A DNA stretch of 44,765 bases from Caldifarciminota bacterium (lineage in GTDB: Bacteria; Hydrothermota; Tepidihabitantia; SM23-42): contig JACUUY010000005.1 of the NCBI GenBank assembly GCA_014859085.1, positions 1 to 44,765 of the forward strand, given 5' to 3'. The notes under the pieces are model-generated. The model saw only the letters and a program-made list of their open reading frames with translations. It did no database searches and was not told where the DNA came from. A program made the position numbers and the translations under genes. Below are positions 2,759-44,765 of this stretch, in pieces (position 1 is the stretch's first letter; the number at the start of each line of letters is the position of its first letter).

Positions 2759-5365
2759 ATGGTGACGTTCGCATTTCTTTTGTTATACGGCTGGTTTGAC
2801 TGGAAGACAATGAAGACCGGGGACTTCATGGCTGTATACAAGGACGGATATGAATATGAGGCGCTGCATACCCTTCAGATCCTTCATTATTACAGAGCAC
2901 AAACCGAAAGTATAATCGGCCCTTACGAGACGAGCCTGCCGGTTGTGATCGAAGACGTGGGCGCGGTGAGCAACGGTTTTGCCAATCCGGTATTTCAGAA
3001 CATACACATCTTCACGCACGCGCCCGGCTTCTCCTACCGGCTTGAAGGGATCGAGAGCTGGTACCGCACGGTTGCCGTGCACGAATATGCACATATCCTG
3101 CACTTGTCGAGAGCACGCGGATTGCCGGGATTGCTGACCACTTTCTTTGGCCCCCTGTTTGCACCGAACATCTACTCGCCGGGCTGGATCATCGAAGGCA
3201 TCACGGTATTCAGTGAATCGCAGAACACGCGCTACGAAGGCCGGCTGAACGACGGGTTTTTCGATGCTTACATCGGCGCGCGCGCCAGCGCCGGTTCAAT
3301 GCCTTCGCTCATTGAGGCAACCAACACGCCGCTTTCTTTCCCGCTCGGCACGTACTACCTGTACGGCGGCGAGTTCTTCGATTTTCTCGGCCGGAGATAC
3401 GGCACCGAGCGCTTCGCCAGCTTCTTCGGGCATTACGGGTCCTATTTCTGGGCACCACTGTCTGCCGTCCTGCCCTTTACGGGCCTGGACGTCGCCGCCC
3501 GCCGTGCATTCGGTCGACCGTGGCCAGGCCTGTTCGATGAGTGGAAGCGATACGAAGAGCATCGTTACCAGTCCTGGCAGCCGGCCGGCAGGCGGATCAC
3601 CGAAAGGGGTTGGTATATGTATTCGCTCGCGGCGAGCAACGACCGGCTCTACTACGTTCGTTATGAGCCGGTCAAGCTGGATGCTTTTCGCCAGCTGAGC
3701 CTCACGCGCATCATTGAATTTGACCGTCTCAAAGGCACTGAAAGGACCATCGCGCACCTGAACCGCATCATCACGACTCCGCTGAGAGTGCACAAGGGCA
3801 AGTTGTACTACACCACGCCGCAGTTCGCGAGCGGGTACGCGAACGTGTACTACCGCGGCCGGGGGATCACGGCAAATCTTCATGAGCGTGATCTAATAAC
3901 GGGTGAAGACCGCATCCTGTTGACCGATGCCATTCGCGGCTTCTGCGTGCTGCCTGACGGTTCGATCTTTTACAGCCGGGACCGGGCGCGCGGTTTCGGC
4001 TCCGAGATCAGGTTGTATGACAGCGGCGCGAATGAATTGCTCTTTGAGAGCGAATTGCTCGTTGGCGAGCTCGCGGTGTCCGGTGGCCGCACCGTGGTCA
4101 CGGCGCGGCATGATTTCGAGAACTGGGATATCTATCGGTTCGATCGGGAAGCCCGGACTTTGGAGCCGCTGGTCGCCACGCCCTGGATCGAGGGCAGCAT
4201 TGGACTGCACGGCGATACGCTGTATTTCACCGCCAATCATGAGAAGACTTACTCGATATACATGTGCGATCTGGAGAACGGCGGACTGTATCGGCTGACC
4301 CGGGATGGCTACGCTGACTTTGGCGTTGCCGTCGACAATGTCCTGTATTTCATCGGTATTACCGGAGACGGGTTTGACTTGTATGCGGCCGACTTCGCGC
4401 CGGTAGAATATGTGCTACCATGCGCCGTGCCGGCGGCACGGCCTGATCTTGACGCACGGCCACTGGCAGTAGTCGAGGGCGGTTACTGCGATGTCGCCGG
4501 GACGCTCGTGCCTGCTTTGCGCATGCCCTGTTTGATACCGACAAATAGCGATCTCAGTGAATGGGCCTATGGTCTACTTTTCCTCGGCGGTGATGCAACG
4601 GATGAGAACGTGTACGGCGGTTTTATCGCGCAAAGGACCGCAGAGCAGGGGATGGCTTTCAATTTCCTCTGGCAGTCGCAGTTCTTCGCGCCGGCCGGTC
4701 TCTCGCTGCTCTATGACTATGGGAATGCGCTGGAATACACAGTGGCGTACCCGGCCTACTGGAGCCTGGAATACGGTGTTTCAAGCCTCAGCCTGTTCGT
4801 CGACGGCCGCGTCTTCGACCGCGCGGCGCGAAAGGAATTCGCGCCGGGATTGTACGTTGCGCTCCAATATCCGTCCACCACGTTTGGGGCGTGTTTTTCC
4901 TTTCCTTACGAACGGCCGGCATGGGGTTCGCAGATCAGCCGGAGTGCGCAGCGGATGCGGATCAGCGCGCGCCAGGTAATCCTGGGCGGCGAGGGGCGCT
5001 TTTTCTCGGACGCCTATGTCGACCGCGATGATCCGGAAACCCCTTCGTTCTCGCTGCGCGGCTATGAGCCGATCGCAACGGCGCGTGCACTGTCAGTGAC
5101 CGCCGAATACGGGCACCGTTTGCTCGGCGTGCGCCGTGGCTTGTGGAATCCCAACGTGTACCTCGAAGACCTCTTCTGGACCGTCTTTGCGGATTTTGCC
5201 TGGACCGATGCTGGAGCGGCATACTATTCGGCCGGCGTCGAGATGAGGCTTGAGGTGAAAGCGGGGTTTGGTTTTGTCCAGCTCGTGCCGAAGCTGGGTC
5301 TTGCGCTGACAAAATCCGGCGCGGTCAAGGTGTACCTTGCCCTTTCCCCGGAGCTGCCCATTTGA
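2759..5365 (+). CDS. Surface gluzincin (peptidase MA-like) with beta-propeller and barrel-like C-terminus
   Basis: This 868-residue protein starts with a short hydrophobic, export-like segment. A zinc peptidase domain follows, with HEYAH at residues 108-112 and a downstream IIEGI whose Glu (about residue 146) fits the third zinc ligand of the peptidase-MA/gluzincin clan. From about residue 260 to 560 are repeated short beta modules (YYVRYE, LYYTTP, SIFYSRDR, TLYFTANH, VLYFIG) typical of a TolB-like propeller. The last 300 residues alternate aromatic and polar residues like an outer-membrane barrel. All catalytic residues are retained, so it is probably a cell-surface protease, although its substrate is unknown. 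No strong SD precedes ATG 2759. It could be co-transcribed with rpoN, 108 bp upstream. Confidence 0.72.
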   Translation: MVTFAFLLLYGWFDWKTMKTGDFMAVYKDGYEYEALHTLQILHYYRAQTESIIGPYETSLPVVIEDVGAVSNGFANPVFQNIHIFTHAPGFSYRLEGIESWYRTVAVHEYAHILHLSRARGLPGLLTTFFGPLFAPNIYSPGWIIEGITVFSESQNTRYEGRLNDGFFDAYIGARASAGSMPSLIEATNTPLSFPLGTYYLYGGEFFDFLGRRYGTERFASFFGHYGSYFWAPLSAVLPFTGLDVAARRAFGRPWPGLFDEWKRYEEHRYQSWQPAGRRITERGWYMYSLAASNDRLYYVRYEPVKLDAFRQLSLTRIIEFDRLKGTERTIAHLNRIITTPLRVHKGKLYYTTPQFASGYANVYYRGRGITANLHERDLITGEDRILLTDAIRGFCVLPDGSIFYSRDRARGFGSEIRLYDSGANELLFESELLVGELAVSGGRTVVTARHDFENWDIYRFDREARTLEPLVATPWIEGSIGLHGDTLYFTANHEKTYSIYMCDLENGGLYRLTRDGYADFGVAVDNVLYFIGITGDGFDLYAADFAPVEYVLPCAVPAARPDLDARPLAVVEGGYCDVAGTLVPALRMPCLIPTNSDLSEWAYGLLFLGGDATDENVYGGFIAQRTAEQGMAFNFLWQSQFFAPAGLSLLYDYGNALEYTVAYPAYWSLEYGVSSLSLFVDGRVFDRAARKEFAPGLYVALQYPSTTFGACFSFPYERPAWGSQISRSAQRMRISARQVILGGEGRFFSDAYVDRDDPETPSFSLRGYEPIATARALSVTAEYGHRLLGVRRGLWNPNVYLEDLFWTVFADFAWTDAGAAYYSAGVEMRLEVKAGFGFVQLVPKLGLALTKSGAVKVYLALSPELPI

Positions 5366-40007: not shown

Positions 40008-40571
40008 ATGATTGGAAATGGACACGCTGGCGTAGCCGACGAGGATCTGCTCAAACGCGCCGCTCTGGGCGACGAGCATTCCTTTGAACAGCTGCTCAGT
40101 AGATACCAGCAGGCCGTTTTCAACACGATCTACCACTACACGGGCAACCGCGAAGATGTCCAGGATCTGGCCCAGGAGATTTTCGTTAAGGTCTGGCGGA
40201 ACGCGGCAAAATTCAAAGGTAAGTCTAAGTTCTCAACGTGGCTCTACAGGATCGTCGTGAATCACTGCCTCAATTATCGCCGCAAGAACCGGCACAAAAA
40301 TGTGTCGCTCGATGAACTGATCGCACAGGGCAATCTGCCTGACCCCCTCGTGGTCGAGCCTGATTGGGAACAGCGAAGAAAGGTCGAGATCGTGCGCCGG
40401 GCGGTCGAGGAGCTGTCGGAACGGCAGCGCATGGCGCTCATCCTGGCGCAGTTCGAGGGGAGGTCGTACAGCGAGATCGCCGAGATCATGAAGGTTTCCC
40501 AGTCTTCTGTCGAATCGCTGATCTTTCGGGCACGCCGGGCCCTGAAGCGCAAGCTGGCAAAGGTTTTGTGA
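40008..40571 (+). CDS. ECF sigma factor of the envelope-stress module
   Basis: The 187-residue product has sigma region 2 with FEQLLSRYQQAVFNTIYHYTG and DLAQEIFVKVWRNAAKF, then FSTWLYRIVVNHCLNY. Region 4 reads MALILAQFEGRSYSEIAEIM and SQSSVESLIFRARRALKRKL. It is followed by an anti-sigma gene and two Spy/CnrX-like genes, as in metal- or envelope-stress systems such as CnrYXH. A GGAAAC word at 39894-39899 might be part of an autoregulated ECF promoter, but this is weak. ATG 40008 is chosen for the typical N-terminus. Confidence 0.9.
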   Translation: MIGNGHAGVADEDLLKRAALGDEHSFEQLLSRYQQAVFNTIYHYTGNREDVQDLAQEIFVKVWRNAAKFKGKSKFSTWLYRIVVNHCLNYRRKNRHKNVSLDELIAQGNLPDPLVVEPDWEQRRKVEIVRRAVEELSERQRMALILAQFEGRSYSEIAEIMKVSQSSVESLIFRARRALKRKLAKVL

Positions 40572-40632
40572 GGTTCACACTGGACCGCAAGAATCTGATA
40601 GATATTGGTGTCTCAATAAATAGGAGCAATGA

Positions 40633-41106
40633 ATGAAGTGTTCTAAGGTAAGAAGAAAATTATCTCGATACCTGGACGGCGAAGTGTGCCCGGATGAGCA
40701 GCGGTTGTTATCAGAGCACCTGGAGCTTTGCCGGGAATGCCAAGCCGAACTGGCCGCATTGTCCAGGCTCGGTGATGTCCTAAACAGTACATTAGAGGGG
40801 ATGGAAATCCAGCCTTTTTTCATGACCCGTCTGAGGCAGTGCGTGCGGGAAGAGGTGCGCCCGGCAATGATCATTGAGAAGATCCGGAGAGTGGCCGTCG
40901 CGGCGGCAACCGCGGTTGGCATTGTTGTTTCGTTATTGATCGGCAATCAAGCAGGCAAGACATTGTATCGATCGATCGCGTCGAGTTATGTCGCGCAAGG
41001 CGTGGAGGAGAGTGATATCTTCGGTCTAAGTTCATTTGATGAATTCTCGGATGGCTCGTTGTCCGATGTTTACAACCAGCTTGTTGCGGGAGGCCATAGT
41101 GGATAA
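40633..41106 (+). CDS. Zinc-finger anti-sigma factor
   Basis: The 157-residue product has H29-x3-C33-x2-C36 in HLELCREC, the same spacing as the anti-sigma at 16292. A single transmembrane helix follows at about residues 83-102 (VAVAAATAVGIVVSLLIG). The periplasmic tail of about 55 residues is short and acidic. AGGAG lies 6 nt before the ATG, 61 nt after the sigma gene. It probably holds the sigma factor at the membrane until released. The next start overlaps its stop by 8 bp. Confidence 0.85.
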   Translation: MKCSKVRRKLSRYLDGEVCPDEQRLLSEHLELCRECQAELAALSRLGDVLNSTLEGMEIQPFFMTRLRQCVREEVRPAMIIEKIRRVAVAAATAVGIVVSLLIGNQAGKTLYRSIASSYVAQGVEESDIFGLSSFDEFSDGSLSDVYNQLVAGGHSG

Positions 41107-41641
41107 GAAAGTTCTGGTTGTTGTGCTCGTCATCTCGGTCGCCATAAATCTGGCCACGGTTTTCACACTGGGATATTTCTGGTTAACGAGGCCGCCCGCC
41201 GGGCAGGAATTTCCTTCCGGCCCACAGCCCATGGCGCCGGAGTGGCGGAACACGCGGATCGTCAGGGAACTCGGCTTGAGCGAGAAGCAGATAGAGAAGA
41301 TAAAAAAGGAAAATGAAGAGATGAGAGAAACGATGCTCCCCTTGCGTCAAGAGTTATTCATGAAGCGGCAGGAGTTAATGTCAATGCTGCGCGAAGAAAG
41401 AATCGACCGGGAAAAAACGGATACCCTGATCGAGCAGATAGCCCGGCTTCAAGTGAAGCATGATGCGCAGGTTTTTGAGCGTTTGGCCAGGATCAAGACA
41501 ATTCTTACGCAGGAGCAGCAGGAACGGCTGGGCGGTTTGCTTCATCAACTGCTCATGAAAGGCAGTCCCGATGAACCTCAACCGGTACCGATGCGGCGCC
41601 ATGGTGTCCGCAAGTTACCGCGCGTCGAGGAAGGACGTTGA
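41099..41641 (+). CDS. CnrX/Spy-like membrane-anchored periplasmic protein
   Basis: The 180-residue product has an N-terminal signal-anchor helix (VLVVVLVISVAINLATVFTLGYF). A long helical periplasmic domain follows, with LGLSEKQIEKIKKENEEM, LRQELFMKRQELMSMLREE, and LARIKTILTQEQQERL near the end. This is the LTxxQ-like helical repeat of the Spy/CpxP/CnrX (periplasmic heavy-metal sensor) family. A membrane-tethered copy next to an anti-sigma gene fits a signal sensor. GTG 41099 has GGGAGG (41088-41093) 5 nt upstream. The metal or ligand is unknown. Confidence 0.8.
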   Translation: MDKKVLVVVLVISVAINLATVFTLGYFWLTRPPAGQEFPSGPQPMAPEWRNTRIVRELGLSEKQIEKIKKENEEMRETMLPLRQELFMKRQELMSMLREERIDREKTDTLIEQIARLQVKHDAQVFERLARIKTILTQEQQERLGGLLHQLLMKGSPDEPQPVPMRRHGVRKLPRVEEGR

Positions 41642-41669
41642 GATGCTGAGCAAAAGAAAGGAGAAACAC

Positions 41670-42155
41670 ATGCATAGACTAAACTCAAAACAAATCGCGG
41701 TGCCAGTCCTTGCATTATTGATGCTTGCTGGCAGCGCGTTCGCGCAGGCTCCGAAAATGGAGCCGGAGCCCGGTAAAGCCCGGGGTATGGGGGAATGTCG
41801 GATGTCCGAGCCTGGACACATGATACCCGGCTTGACCGAAGAGCAGCAAACCCGGATCAAGACCATGAGGGTAGAGCACATGAAGGCGATGCAGTCTCTG
41901 CGCAATCAACTGGGCGAGAAGAAAGCGCGTCTGCGCACGCTCACGACCGGTGATAAGGTCAACATGACCGAAGTCAACAAAATGATCGACGAGATCGGCA
42001 GCCTGCGCACCAAAATGATGAAGCAGAAAGAACAGCATCGGCAGGAGATACGGAATCTTCTCAATGACGAGCAGCGGATATTCTTTGACACCCGTCACAA
42101 AATGCACGAAAAAGGAGAGCGCCAACGGCATGAAGCAATGCCCCGCATGAGATAA
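41670..42155 (+). CDS. Spy/CpxP-like soluble periplasmic protein
   Basis: The 161-residue product has a cleavable signal peptide (VPVLALLMLAGSAFAQ). A helical methionine-, histidine- and lysine-rich domain follows, with PGLTEEQQTRIKTMRVEHMKA and IRNLLNDEQRIFFDTRH. Both contain the LTxxQ-like elements of Spy, a periplasmic chaperone/metal-responsive family. AAAGGAG (41657-41663) sets ATG 41670; an upstream ATG at 41643 lacks an SD. It is the output partner of the 40008-41641 module and is followed by a strong hairpin. Confidence 0.82.
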   Translation: MHRLNSKQIAVPVLALLMLAGSAFAQAPKMEPEPGKARGMGECRMSEPGHMIPGLTEEQQTRIKTMRVEHMKAMQSLRNQLGEKKARLRTLTTGDKVNMTEVNKMIDEIGSLRTKMMKQKEQHRQEIRNLLNDEQRIFFDTRHKMHEKGERQRHEAMPRMR

Positions 42156-42388: not shown

Positions 42389-44765
42389 ATGATCATCATT
42401 CTTTTTCTCCTGCATGCAGCGTGGCAACAACGCGTGTCATATGAAATACGGGCAGTACTCGACACCGATGAGCATACACTTGCCGCGTCGGCCGATCTGA
42501 CATACTATAATAATTCACCCTTCGCGCTCGATACCATATATCTTTATCTCCATGCAAATGCGTTCGGCAGCCGGCAGACTTACTACGTGCGGGAAGCCGG
42601 GAAGATGGGGGATCAAAGGTTCGAAAGAATGCCCATTCAGGGTCATGGCGGCATGACCGTTGACCGGGTCGCATCGAACGCACACGCACTGGGATTCTGC
42701 ATCACGGAGACAATACTGGCGGTACCGTTGGCGCAACCTGTGATCCCCGGGGATTCCGTGAATTTCACGATTGATTATTGGCTCAGGATCCCAAGAGAAT
42801 TGCACGAGTTCGGATACTGGCCCGGTCATTATGAGATGACTTGCTGGTATCCAAGGGTCTGCGTCTTTGACGCCGCAGGGTGGCATGTTGAAGCCTTGCA
42901 TCCGCTCGGAGGCACGTATGGCGAGTTCGGCCGGTATGACGTCACGATCGACCTTCCGGCTGATTATGTCGTCGCCGCTACAGGACGGCAGGTAGTGCAT
43001 GCAGGGAGAGAATTTGCGAGCGATCTCAATGACCGCGACAATGAAAACGTCTCTGGCGGGCGCAAGCGCGTGCGCTTCGCGGCTGATGACGTCGATGATT
43101 TCATATGGGTCTGCGACCGGGAATTCGGGGTCCGGATGTGCAAGGTGGAGAATACTAACATCTCTGTTTTTTATCGCCGGGAAAACGAAAACCATGGTGA
43201 GAATGCATGCCAGTATGCAATTGATGCCGTATCGAGGCTCGCCCGGTGGTTCGGAGATTATCCTTACGGGGATATTTGTATTGTCGACGGCTTCCACCGG
43301 GGAGGCGCAGCATATCCACAGATGATCATTATCAGCATGAAGGAAGACCGCCTGACACGCTATTTCGAAGCGCAGCTGGCCGGCGAAATAGGCAAACAAT
43401 GGTTTGACGCGGTAATCGGCGTGAATGGATCGCGGGATGGTTGGCTCGGCCAGGGTCTTGCCGCCTATGCTGCAATAAGATACATGGAGGATAAGTACGG
43501 ACCGGAATACTCGCTCATGAAGACACCGCTGTTGCCTCCCTTATCCCTGGAGTATTGTCACCGGTTGTACTATTACGTGATGCAGACAAATCGGCTGGAA
43601 AAGCCGGTTTCGGCATCTGCCGGCAACTATGTCGATCTGCCCATCGTCTATGAGAGCAGCATTAGATCAAAGCCCGCGCTCTTTTTCCGGTCGCTGGAGA
43701 ACATGTGCGGCAGGGATCAATTCGATGGAATGCTCCGGCAGTACTATCAGGAGCACACGTTTAAGCATGCGCGGCCAGAAGATCTCATCGGCATATGCAG
43801 CCGCTTCAGCGATCACGATCTGGCGCCGCTCTTTGATTCATTCATCCATACTACAGAATTCTGCGACTGGGCGGTGAAACGGGTGACCGGGCATACGGTG
43901 GAGATAGAAAACAGGGGAGATCTGAGGATGCCGGTCGACGTGCTGGTCCGGACTGCATCCGGCGAACATAATTTCGCCCTGGACGGTAAGGCGAAGGATT
44001 ATTTAATCGAGCTGCCGCATGACGCGGGAGAAGTGACCGGGGTGGCGATAGACCCGTCAGAGAATACTCTGGACCCGGACCTCTGGAATAATCACTTCCC
44101 GCGCAGGGTCTCGGTCAAGCCGGTTTTCGATTTTGACTGGCCGTCGTTTTCCACCTACCAGATCATCTGGTCGCCGTATCTCTGGTATAATCACTATGAT
44201 GGCGTGAAAGCAGGTCTTTATGTCTTTGGCGACAAGTTCGCGGATTTTGATTTTGTCAAGGGCGGATACCAGAAGACGGCTGGCTATGTTCGCGGGTTTG
44301 GCAGCGGCCGGGACTATCCGCTGCTCAACTACCAGACGCCGGTCGTGTTCAGGGATGGGTTGCGCGTTCGCCTGCGATTCAGCGGCTCACGTTCCCGAGG
44401 TGGAGATTACATCAGCCTCGGTTTCGCCAGCAGTCTCGGACGTCCCTTCGCACGTAAGCCGCAGGTTGAGATTACGAACATGCTTGTCTATGGCGGGCTT
44501 TTCACATATGCAGGCTTGGACTCGATCGATTGGGACTTGGGCAAGAACGTCTCCCTCGATAATCATTTCCGGTTCCGGTATTCGGCATTAAACATCGATG
44601 CCCGATTAGCTTTTGCCCATCATGCGCTCGGCAGTGACTGGCAATACTTGAAATCGACGTTTGAGATAAGGCGTTCATTCGCGATCGGCGTGCCGTTCAC
44701 AGTTCGCCTTTTCGTCGGCAAGATATTCGGCGCGGCGCCGGTCCACGAACAATTGTTCCTGAGCA
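42389..44765 (+). CDS. M1-aminopeptidase-like pseudopeptidase with barrel-like C-terminus (partial)
   Basis: The frame is open for 792 codons and runs off the window. A short export-like start (MIIILFLLHAAW) precedes an M1 beta-saddle domain, then the catalytic-fold region. GGAAYP (residues 305-310) stands where the family has GGMEYP, GEIGK (332-336) where it has HExxH, and WLGQGLAAY (352-360) where it has WLDEGLA. All three zinc ligands, two His and the Glu, are replaced, at the exact HExxH-x18-E spacing. The general-base Glu remains. The last third has barrel-like alternation (YLWYNHYDGVKAGLYVFG). A non-enzymatic surface binding role is likely. Confidence 0.82.
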   Translation, partial: MIIILFLLHAAWQQRVSYEIRAVLDTDEHTLAASADLTYYNNSPFALDTIYLYLHANAFGSRQTYYVREAGKMGDQRFERMPIQGHGGMTVDRVASNAHALGFCITETILAVPLAQPVIPGDSVNFTIDYWLRIPRELHEFGYWPGHYEMTCWYPRVCVFDAAGWHVEALHPLGGTYGEFGRYDVTIDLPADYVVAATGRQVVHAGREFASDLNDRDNENVSGGRKRVRFAADDVDDFIWVCDREFGVRMCKVENTNISVFYRRENENHGENACQYAIDAVSRLARWFGDYPYGDICIVDGFHRGGAAYPQMIIISMKEDRLTRYFEAQLAGEIGKQWFDAVIGVNGSRDGWLGQGLAAYAAIRYMEDKYGPEYSLMKTPLLPPLSLEYCHRLYYYVMQTNRLEKPVSASAGNYVDLPIVYESSIRSKPALFFRSLENMCGRDQFDGMLRQYYQEHTFKHARPEDLIGICSRFSDHDLAPLFDSFIHTTEFCDWAVKRVTGHTVEIENRGDLRMPVDVLVRTASGEHNFALDGKAKDYLIELPHDAGEVTGVAIDPSENTLDPDLWNNHFPRRVSVKPVFDFDWPSFSTYQIIWSPYLWYNHYDGVKAGLYVFGDKFADFDFVKGGYQKTAGYVRGFGSGRDYPLLNYQTPVVFRDGLRVRLRFSGSRSRGGDYISLGFASSLGRPFARKPQVEITNMLVYGGLFTYAGLDSIDWDLGKNVSLDNHFRFRYSALNIDARLAFAHHALGSDWQYLKSTFEIRRSFAIGVPFTVRLFVGKIFGAAPVHEQLFLS

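Follow-up and report, generated by a model that had tools for sequence, protein, structure and literature searches.

The gene that runs off the end of the window (the whole stretch of 44,765 nucleotides analysed, contig C143 of a 2.57 Mb MAG from the candidate phylum WOR-3/Stahlbacteria) is, judged from sequence, a real and old pseudoenzyme of the M1 peptidase family. We assign a probability of roughly 0.6 to the full reading, namely that its product is an outer-membrane protein combining an M1 fold with a barrel, which has lost catalysis and is retained for the barrel.

The gene is seen in the window as a single open frame on the + strand (42389..44765), of which the first 792 codons (42389-44764) are present before the contig end cuts it. 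A profile search of the genome located the missing 3′ end, the last ~124 codons, on contig C62:2-394. The ends of C143 and C62 overlap by 15 bases (CAATTGTTCCTGAGC); the C62 part is in frame and closes with ...GTGIHF, followed by a stop. The complete protein would comprise about 916 residues, so that the first-pass annotation was right to regard length and frame as kept, even with the contig ending inside the gene. The protein opens with a short hydrophobic, signal-peptide-like N-terminus, MIIILFLLHAA (42389..42421, +; read from the sequence, with a helix at residues 2-10 in the model). Very short hydrophobic N-termini in which no basic residue precedes the hydrophobic stretch (MIIILFLLHAAWQQ, MFILLFIITTSADH) were observed in M1-barrel proteins and in a SurA protein (L046:3469); such N-termini are unusual for Sec signal peptides and are present in several WOR-3 proteins.

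The remaining domain layout was assigned from AlphaFold2, Foldseek and Pfam. The N-terminal beta domain of the M1 fold covers about residues 14-262 (42428..43174, +; AlphaFold2) and is followed by the helical M1 catalytic-domain homologue at residues 264-490 (43178..43858, +; PF01433, AlphaFold2 and Foldseek), the M1-like domain amounting to about 570 residues. From residue 589 on, the window holds the first part of a predicted 16-strand Omp85-like barrel (44153..44765, +), the remainder of which lies on C62. Pfam places Peptidase_M1 (PF01433) on residues 328-485 with 39.2 bits against a cut-off of 27.7, and no NCBIfam family was over threshold. The AlphaFold2 model of the window protein has a mean pLDDT of 74, and its top PDB structures in Foldseek are ERAP1 and IRAP (~600 columns, E about 1e-23, TM about 0.5; E=6e-24 for ERAP1). 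The significant PF01433 match together with the M1 fold establishes membership of the family by descent, in agreement with the earlier suggestion that the fold is kept.

Direct reading of the DNA and alignment confirmed the loss of the catalytic site. GEIGK replaces HExxH, i.e. zinc ligands 1 and 2 (residues 332-336; 43382..43396, +), Gln355 replaces the third zinc ligand Glu (43451..43453, +), and GGAAYP replaces the substrate N-terminus binding motif GGMEYP (residues 305-310; 43301..43318, +). Aligned active relatives show HEIGH, Glu and GGMEYP at these positions. The x18 spacing is preserved to the residue between Lys336 and Gln355, yet none of the three zinc ligands is left. Moreover, Arg426 stands in place of the catalytic Tyr in the alignment (43664..43666, +; AYSKPA in active relatives). 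In M1 enzymes this Tyr stabilises the transition state. Where M1 enzymes carry HExxHx18E, a G(A/G)MEN-type motif and the Tyr, the window protein thus reads GEIGKx18Q, GGAAYP and Arg426. The sole catalytic residue remaining is Glu333, the general base of HExxH, and its equivalent is gone in several congeners. The first-pass description of the loss of every zinc ligand and of GGMEYP is accordingly accurate; it overlooked the loss of the Tyr and did not note that Glu333 persists.

For comparison, 63 homologues from the phylum were aligned, taken from incomplete MAGs with one genome per species. HExxHx18E is kept in 37 and absent from 26, the latter comprising the window's genus (6/6), its sister genus (G009), genus g9 (G015) and all 18 members of f6, a distant family of the same class as the window's genus. 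Catalytic positions are lost in 7/7 proteins of the window's genus and G009, albeit with substitutions that differ from protein to protein: the ligand triplets are GKQ, NWQ, DLQ, TRS, NKH and GEE in the genus and ARE in G009. Hence, of the expectation that orthologues would lack the site through the same substitutions, the first half holds for six congeners and G009 and the second does not. Frames are intact at ~910 aa (54-59% identity) in four congeners and at 727 aa in a fifth; congeners G002 (67% complete) and G006 (94% complete) yielded no homologue. A single scan of 84,980 genomes with one barrel peptide pattern returned WOR-3/Stahlbacteria/TA06 records only.

A canonical HExxH in aligned orthologues had been named beforehand as a sign of local error or recent decay, and such orthologues do exist in sister genera. 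Still, the loss is old rather than an error or fresh decay, because genus and sister genus all lack the site and do so in intact frames. Sequencing error and recent decay are rejected with the absence of the site in all congeners carrying the gene. Chance is likewise excluded, as 37 of the 63 homologues have a complete zinc site and every gene-bearing congener is without one. With the motif columns left out of tree building, the active or dead state changes three times. A single origin for all dead members was rejected (AU test, p=0.0001), whereas a joint origin for the window's genus, G009 and G015 was not (p=0.06). At least two separate losses of the zinc site in the phylum are thus firmly established, and a third is likely. 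G015 reads HKIGR and would represent the youngest loss, since the Tyr and MEYP are still kept.

What disappears in parallel can be delimited from the columns that reach 95% conservation or more among the 36 active rows of full length. Ten such residues are gone from both large dead clades (R140, E175, M307, E308, H332, H336, E350, D354, E355 and Y426), and most other columns conserved in the active proteins are kept in the dead clades. By M1 enzymology, H332, H336, E355, Y426 and M307/E308 are catalytic and substrate-binding residues; a catalytic or substrate-binding role may be inferred for R140 and E175 from their parallel loss. That the dead proteins are still enzymes, with another metal site or chemistry, seems very improbable: positions 332, 336, 355 and 426 mostly differ across the seven proteins and provide no conserved metal-binding set, even if Glu333 and the helical scaffold persist in the window protein and pseudoenzymes sometimes prove unexpectedly active.

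The genomic surroundings also differ between active and dead members. Active f1 genes are flanked on one side by three PPIase genes, ending with a SurA-like one, and on the other by a CCA-adding/poly(A) polymerase gene; every scorable active f1 member adjoins SurA and/or the CCA-adding enzyme gene, within the limits that contig breaks set to scoring. Conversely, in G009 and in every genome of the window's genus that could be scored, SurA and CCA genes are direct neighbours with 142-456 bp between them; there the ancestral slot is empty and the pseudo-M1 gene is located elsewhere. The M1-barrel gene of G015 is also away from SurA. As three active f2 members likewise lie elsewhere, leaving the SurA slot is insufficient for loss. 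In G010 (L115, L116; CP070664.1) and G012 (L088, L114; CP070834.1) the M1-barrel gene is split, with one half at SurA and the other at the CCA enzyme, 0.18-0.35 Mb apart and accompanied by runs of N. Misjoining during the scaffolding of these public single-contig MAGs is the probable cause, and both homologues were left out as evidence for domain loss. In G031, two SurA matches of identical score 5,750 bp apart (C2:330300-331520 and 336050-337270) represent either a tandem duplication or an assembly repeat.

Upstream of the pseudo-M1 gene, Pfam identifies an ECF sigma factor, a zf-HC2 anti-sigma factor and two Metal_resist/LTXXQ proteins (40008..42155, +), a context partly common to the congeners. 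A Y1 (IS200-like) transposase lies directly downstream on C62 (L077:544-1419) and in L034, L035, L039 and L040; with its presence in 5/5 scorable genus members it appears to be stably kept there. Family f6 has a context of its own, with the same HTH-domain gene immediately upstream at 17/17 loci with upstream sequence (one partial match). The encoded protein has ~220-250 aa, an N-terminal HTH_31 and an unknown C-terminal part (L117:7875-8531, L118, L119-L127 and others), and its gene was absent at the nine g1, g3, g9 and active f1 loci searched.

The part of the protein kept by selection was addressed by comparing the domains within pairs, since dS is mostly saturated in the window's genus. 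Dividing the M1 distance by the barrel distance gives a median of 0.80 for 11 active pairs (range 0.61-1.19), in which the M1 domain thus evolves no faster than the barrel, against a median of 1.78 for 12 dead pairs (range 1.04-5.27; Mann-Whitney p=9e-5). The pairs are near neighbours picked by hand and not all strictly independent. For pairs with estimable dS in the window's genus, dN/dS is 0.11-0.19 in the dead M1 domains; the barrels of the genus give 0.04-0.13. In f6 the dead M1 domains give 0.18-0.43; across both groups the M1 values vary with pair and method. As dN/dS is well below 1, the dead M1 domain should have some role beyond dead weight. Among columns invariant in 14 active f1/f2 rows, the window clade retains 71% in the M1 domain and 95% in the barrel, and the dead clade has newly fixed residues at 4/530 and 7/216 columns, respectively. 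In congener L040 (G005) residues 32-222 are missing, with the hydrophobic start and barrel kept; about the first 255 residues are absent from f6 members L075, L076, L078 and L079, again with the barrel kept. Taken together, these data suggest that the barrel is the needed part and that the M1 domain, though still constrained, is under relaxed selection compared with it.

The first-pass annotation had proposed that selection maintains the M1 domain for binding or structure at the cell surface. The relaxation of this domain, the small number of newly fixed residues and the partial deletion in a congener all speak against selection for binding. In its most specific form, the dead cleft would now be a peptide- or protein-binding receptor, much as Tma108 holds nascent chains in its M1 pocket. 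Fold and frame are indeed preserved over long divergence with an M1 dN/dS below 1, and binding roles are on record for M1 pseudo-peptidases (PMC11266112). However, a receptor is difficult to reconcile with seven different ligand triplets in seven proteins, with the fixation counts above, or with the loss of M1 segments from one congener and four f6 members. We regard it as rather unlikely and, because the pocket drifts, poorly supported. Decay toward loss, in which the intact frames are transient, is considered less probable again. It would account for the faster evolution of the M1 domain, the N-terminal deletion in G005 and the failure to find the gene in G002 and G006, but not for intact frames in five congeners, for the dN/dS of both domains, for the 95% of invariant columns retained by the barrel, or for f6, which has been dead much longer and keeps the gene in 18 genomes. 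Retention for the barrel thus remains the preferred reading.

A barrel-like C-terminus, as noted from the sequence at the outset, was supported by prediction. In the full-length congener protein L034, 16 strands were predicted after residue 589 with modest confidence, and the barrel portions of the models have a pLDDT of about 35-90. In G009, one of the dead relatives, PF01103 (Omp85) scores 26.2 bits, above its cut-off. Across a set of 26 barrels a single one matched, so the relation to Omp85 is distant. Using hhalign, the family barrel profile matched WOR-3 BamA barrels with E=3e-6 and a probability of 88, and GNMRGYQ was placed on the VRGY motif; in the window protein, NMRGYQ is found in the C62 part. 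A search with the barrel profile found no sequence relative in the PDB, and the whole-protein Foldseek list says nothing about the barrel because it is filled by M1 structures. Pfam detected no POTRA domain in the M1-barrel protein, the M1-like domain occupying that position. The protein may be described as distantly Omp85-like, without standing as a canonical Omp85 member.

Omp85 proteins carry their POTRA domains on the periplasmic side. PlpD is an Omp85 protein whose N-terminal enzyme domain lies in the periplasm (PMC11116518). By this analogy the M1-like domain N-terminal to the barrel is expected on the periplasmic side rather than at the cell surface, where it had initially been placed; the dead M1 domain is probably periplasmic. 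A more far-reaching proposal, which we put forward tentatively and with the odds against it, is that the M1-derived domain, with catalysis lost at least twice, replaced POTRA as the periplasmic docking or gating module of a lineage-specific outer-membrane transport or assembly protein, an Omp85 subfamily outside the ten described.

The annotation had further suggested that the protein forms an active/inactive surface pair with the product of 2759-5365, also in the window. This product resembles gluzincins and has HEYAH, propeller-like repeats and a C-terminus rich in strands; no Pfam or NCBIfam family was over threshold for it. Apart from their location in one window and strand-rich C-terminal regions in both, little connects the two, and we see almost no chance that they act as a pair. 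They belong to separate families, their homologues lie 0.5-1.3 Mb apart in single-contig congeners, and their distributions are mismatched: the 2759-5365 gene occurs in 8/8 genomes of the genus and 34/65 of the class, including congeners and f4 genomes without the M1-barrel gene, and was not detected in G015 or most f6 dead genomes. An active/inactive pair by duplication within the M1-barrel family is rejected as well, a profile search having found this gene as a single copy in each genome of the window's genus.

In summary, the family ancestor would by sequence have been an intact zinc aminopeptidase encoded between the SurA and CCA-adding enzyme genes, a position from which we infer that it probably acted on peptides on the periplasmic side of the outer membrane. 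On the branch to the window's genus and its sister genus, the gene left this slot, and the zinc, substrate N-terminus and Tyr functions were lost, as the proteins of both genera show. Since then, the protein would have been kept for its barrel, with the dead domain sitting in the periplasm at the POTRA position, an appendage for structure or docking that is under loose constraint. The data suggest that the barrel, not peptide cutting, is what the cell needs. Pseudoenzymes are common, but many living active relatives and two or three independent deaths in one phylum can seldom be compared. Such a comparison lets one see which part selection keeps, here the barrel, and makes two questions testable: the purpose of an M1 domain on an outer-membrane barrel, and the turning of enzyme domains into periplasmic modules of Omp85-type barrels.

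Among known systems, the window protein has its fold, domain order and motif positions in common with the M1 aminopeptidases ColAP, ERAP1, IRAP and aminopeptidase N, ColAP (3cia) being the closest solved sequence and ERAP1/IRAP the closest folds. In contrast to these enzymes it lacks the zinc ligands, the G(A/G)MEN-type motif and the catalytic Tyr, and carries a barrel where they have a C-terminal helical domain. The active WOR-3 M1-barrel fusions (e.g. L012, L046) have the same architecture at 44-46% identity and one copy per genome, but keep HExxHx18E, GGMEYP and the Tyr. Non-enzymatic roles on a retained M1 or aminopeptidase-homology fold have been proposed or accepted for Tma108 (PMC11266112) and TAF2 (PMC6220335); both are soluble eukaryotic proteins with no barrel, and Tma108 keeps its zinc ligands, unlike the window protein. 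In the literature as far as it was accessible to us, no paper joined peptidase M1, Omp85 and domain architecture, and papers on M1 and Omp85 dealt with other subjects. The text of Heinz and Lithgow 2014 (PMC4104836) has no word beginning with "peptidase", and its "Metallo" group has PF00149. The ten Omp85/TpsB subfamilies described there share the barrel type and a VRGY-like motif with the window protein. PlpD and the patatin-like Omp85 proteins likewise have a 16-strand Omp85 barrel preceded by an enzyme-type domain; PlpD, however, has a patatin domain, possesses POTRA and is no pseudoenzyme, whereas the window protein carries a dead M1 domain in the place of POTRA.
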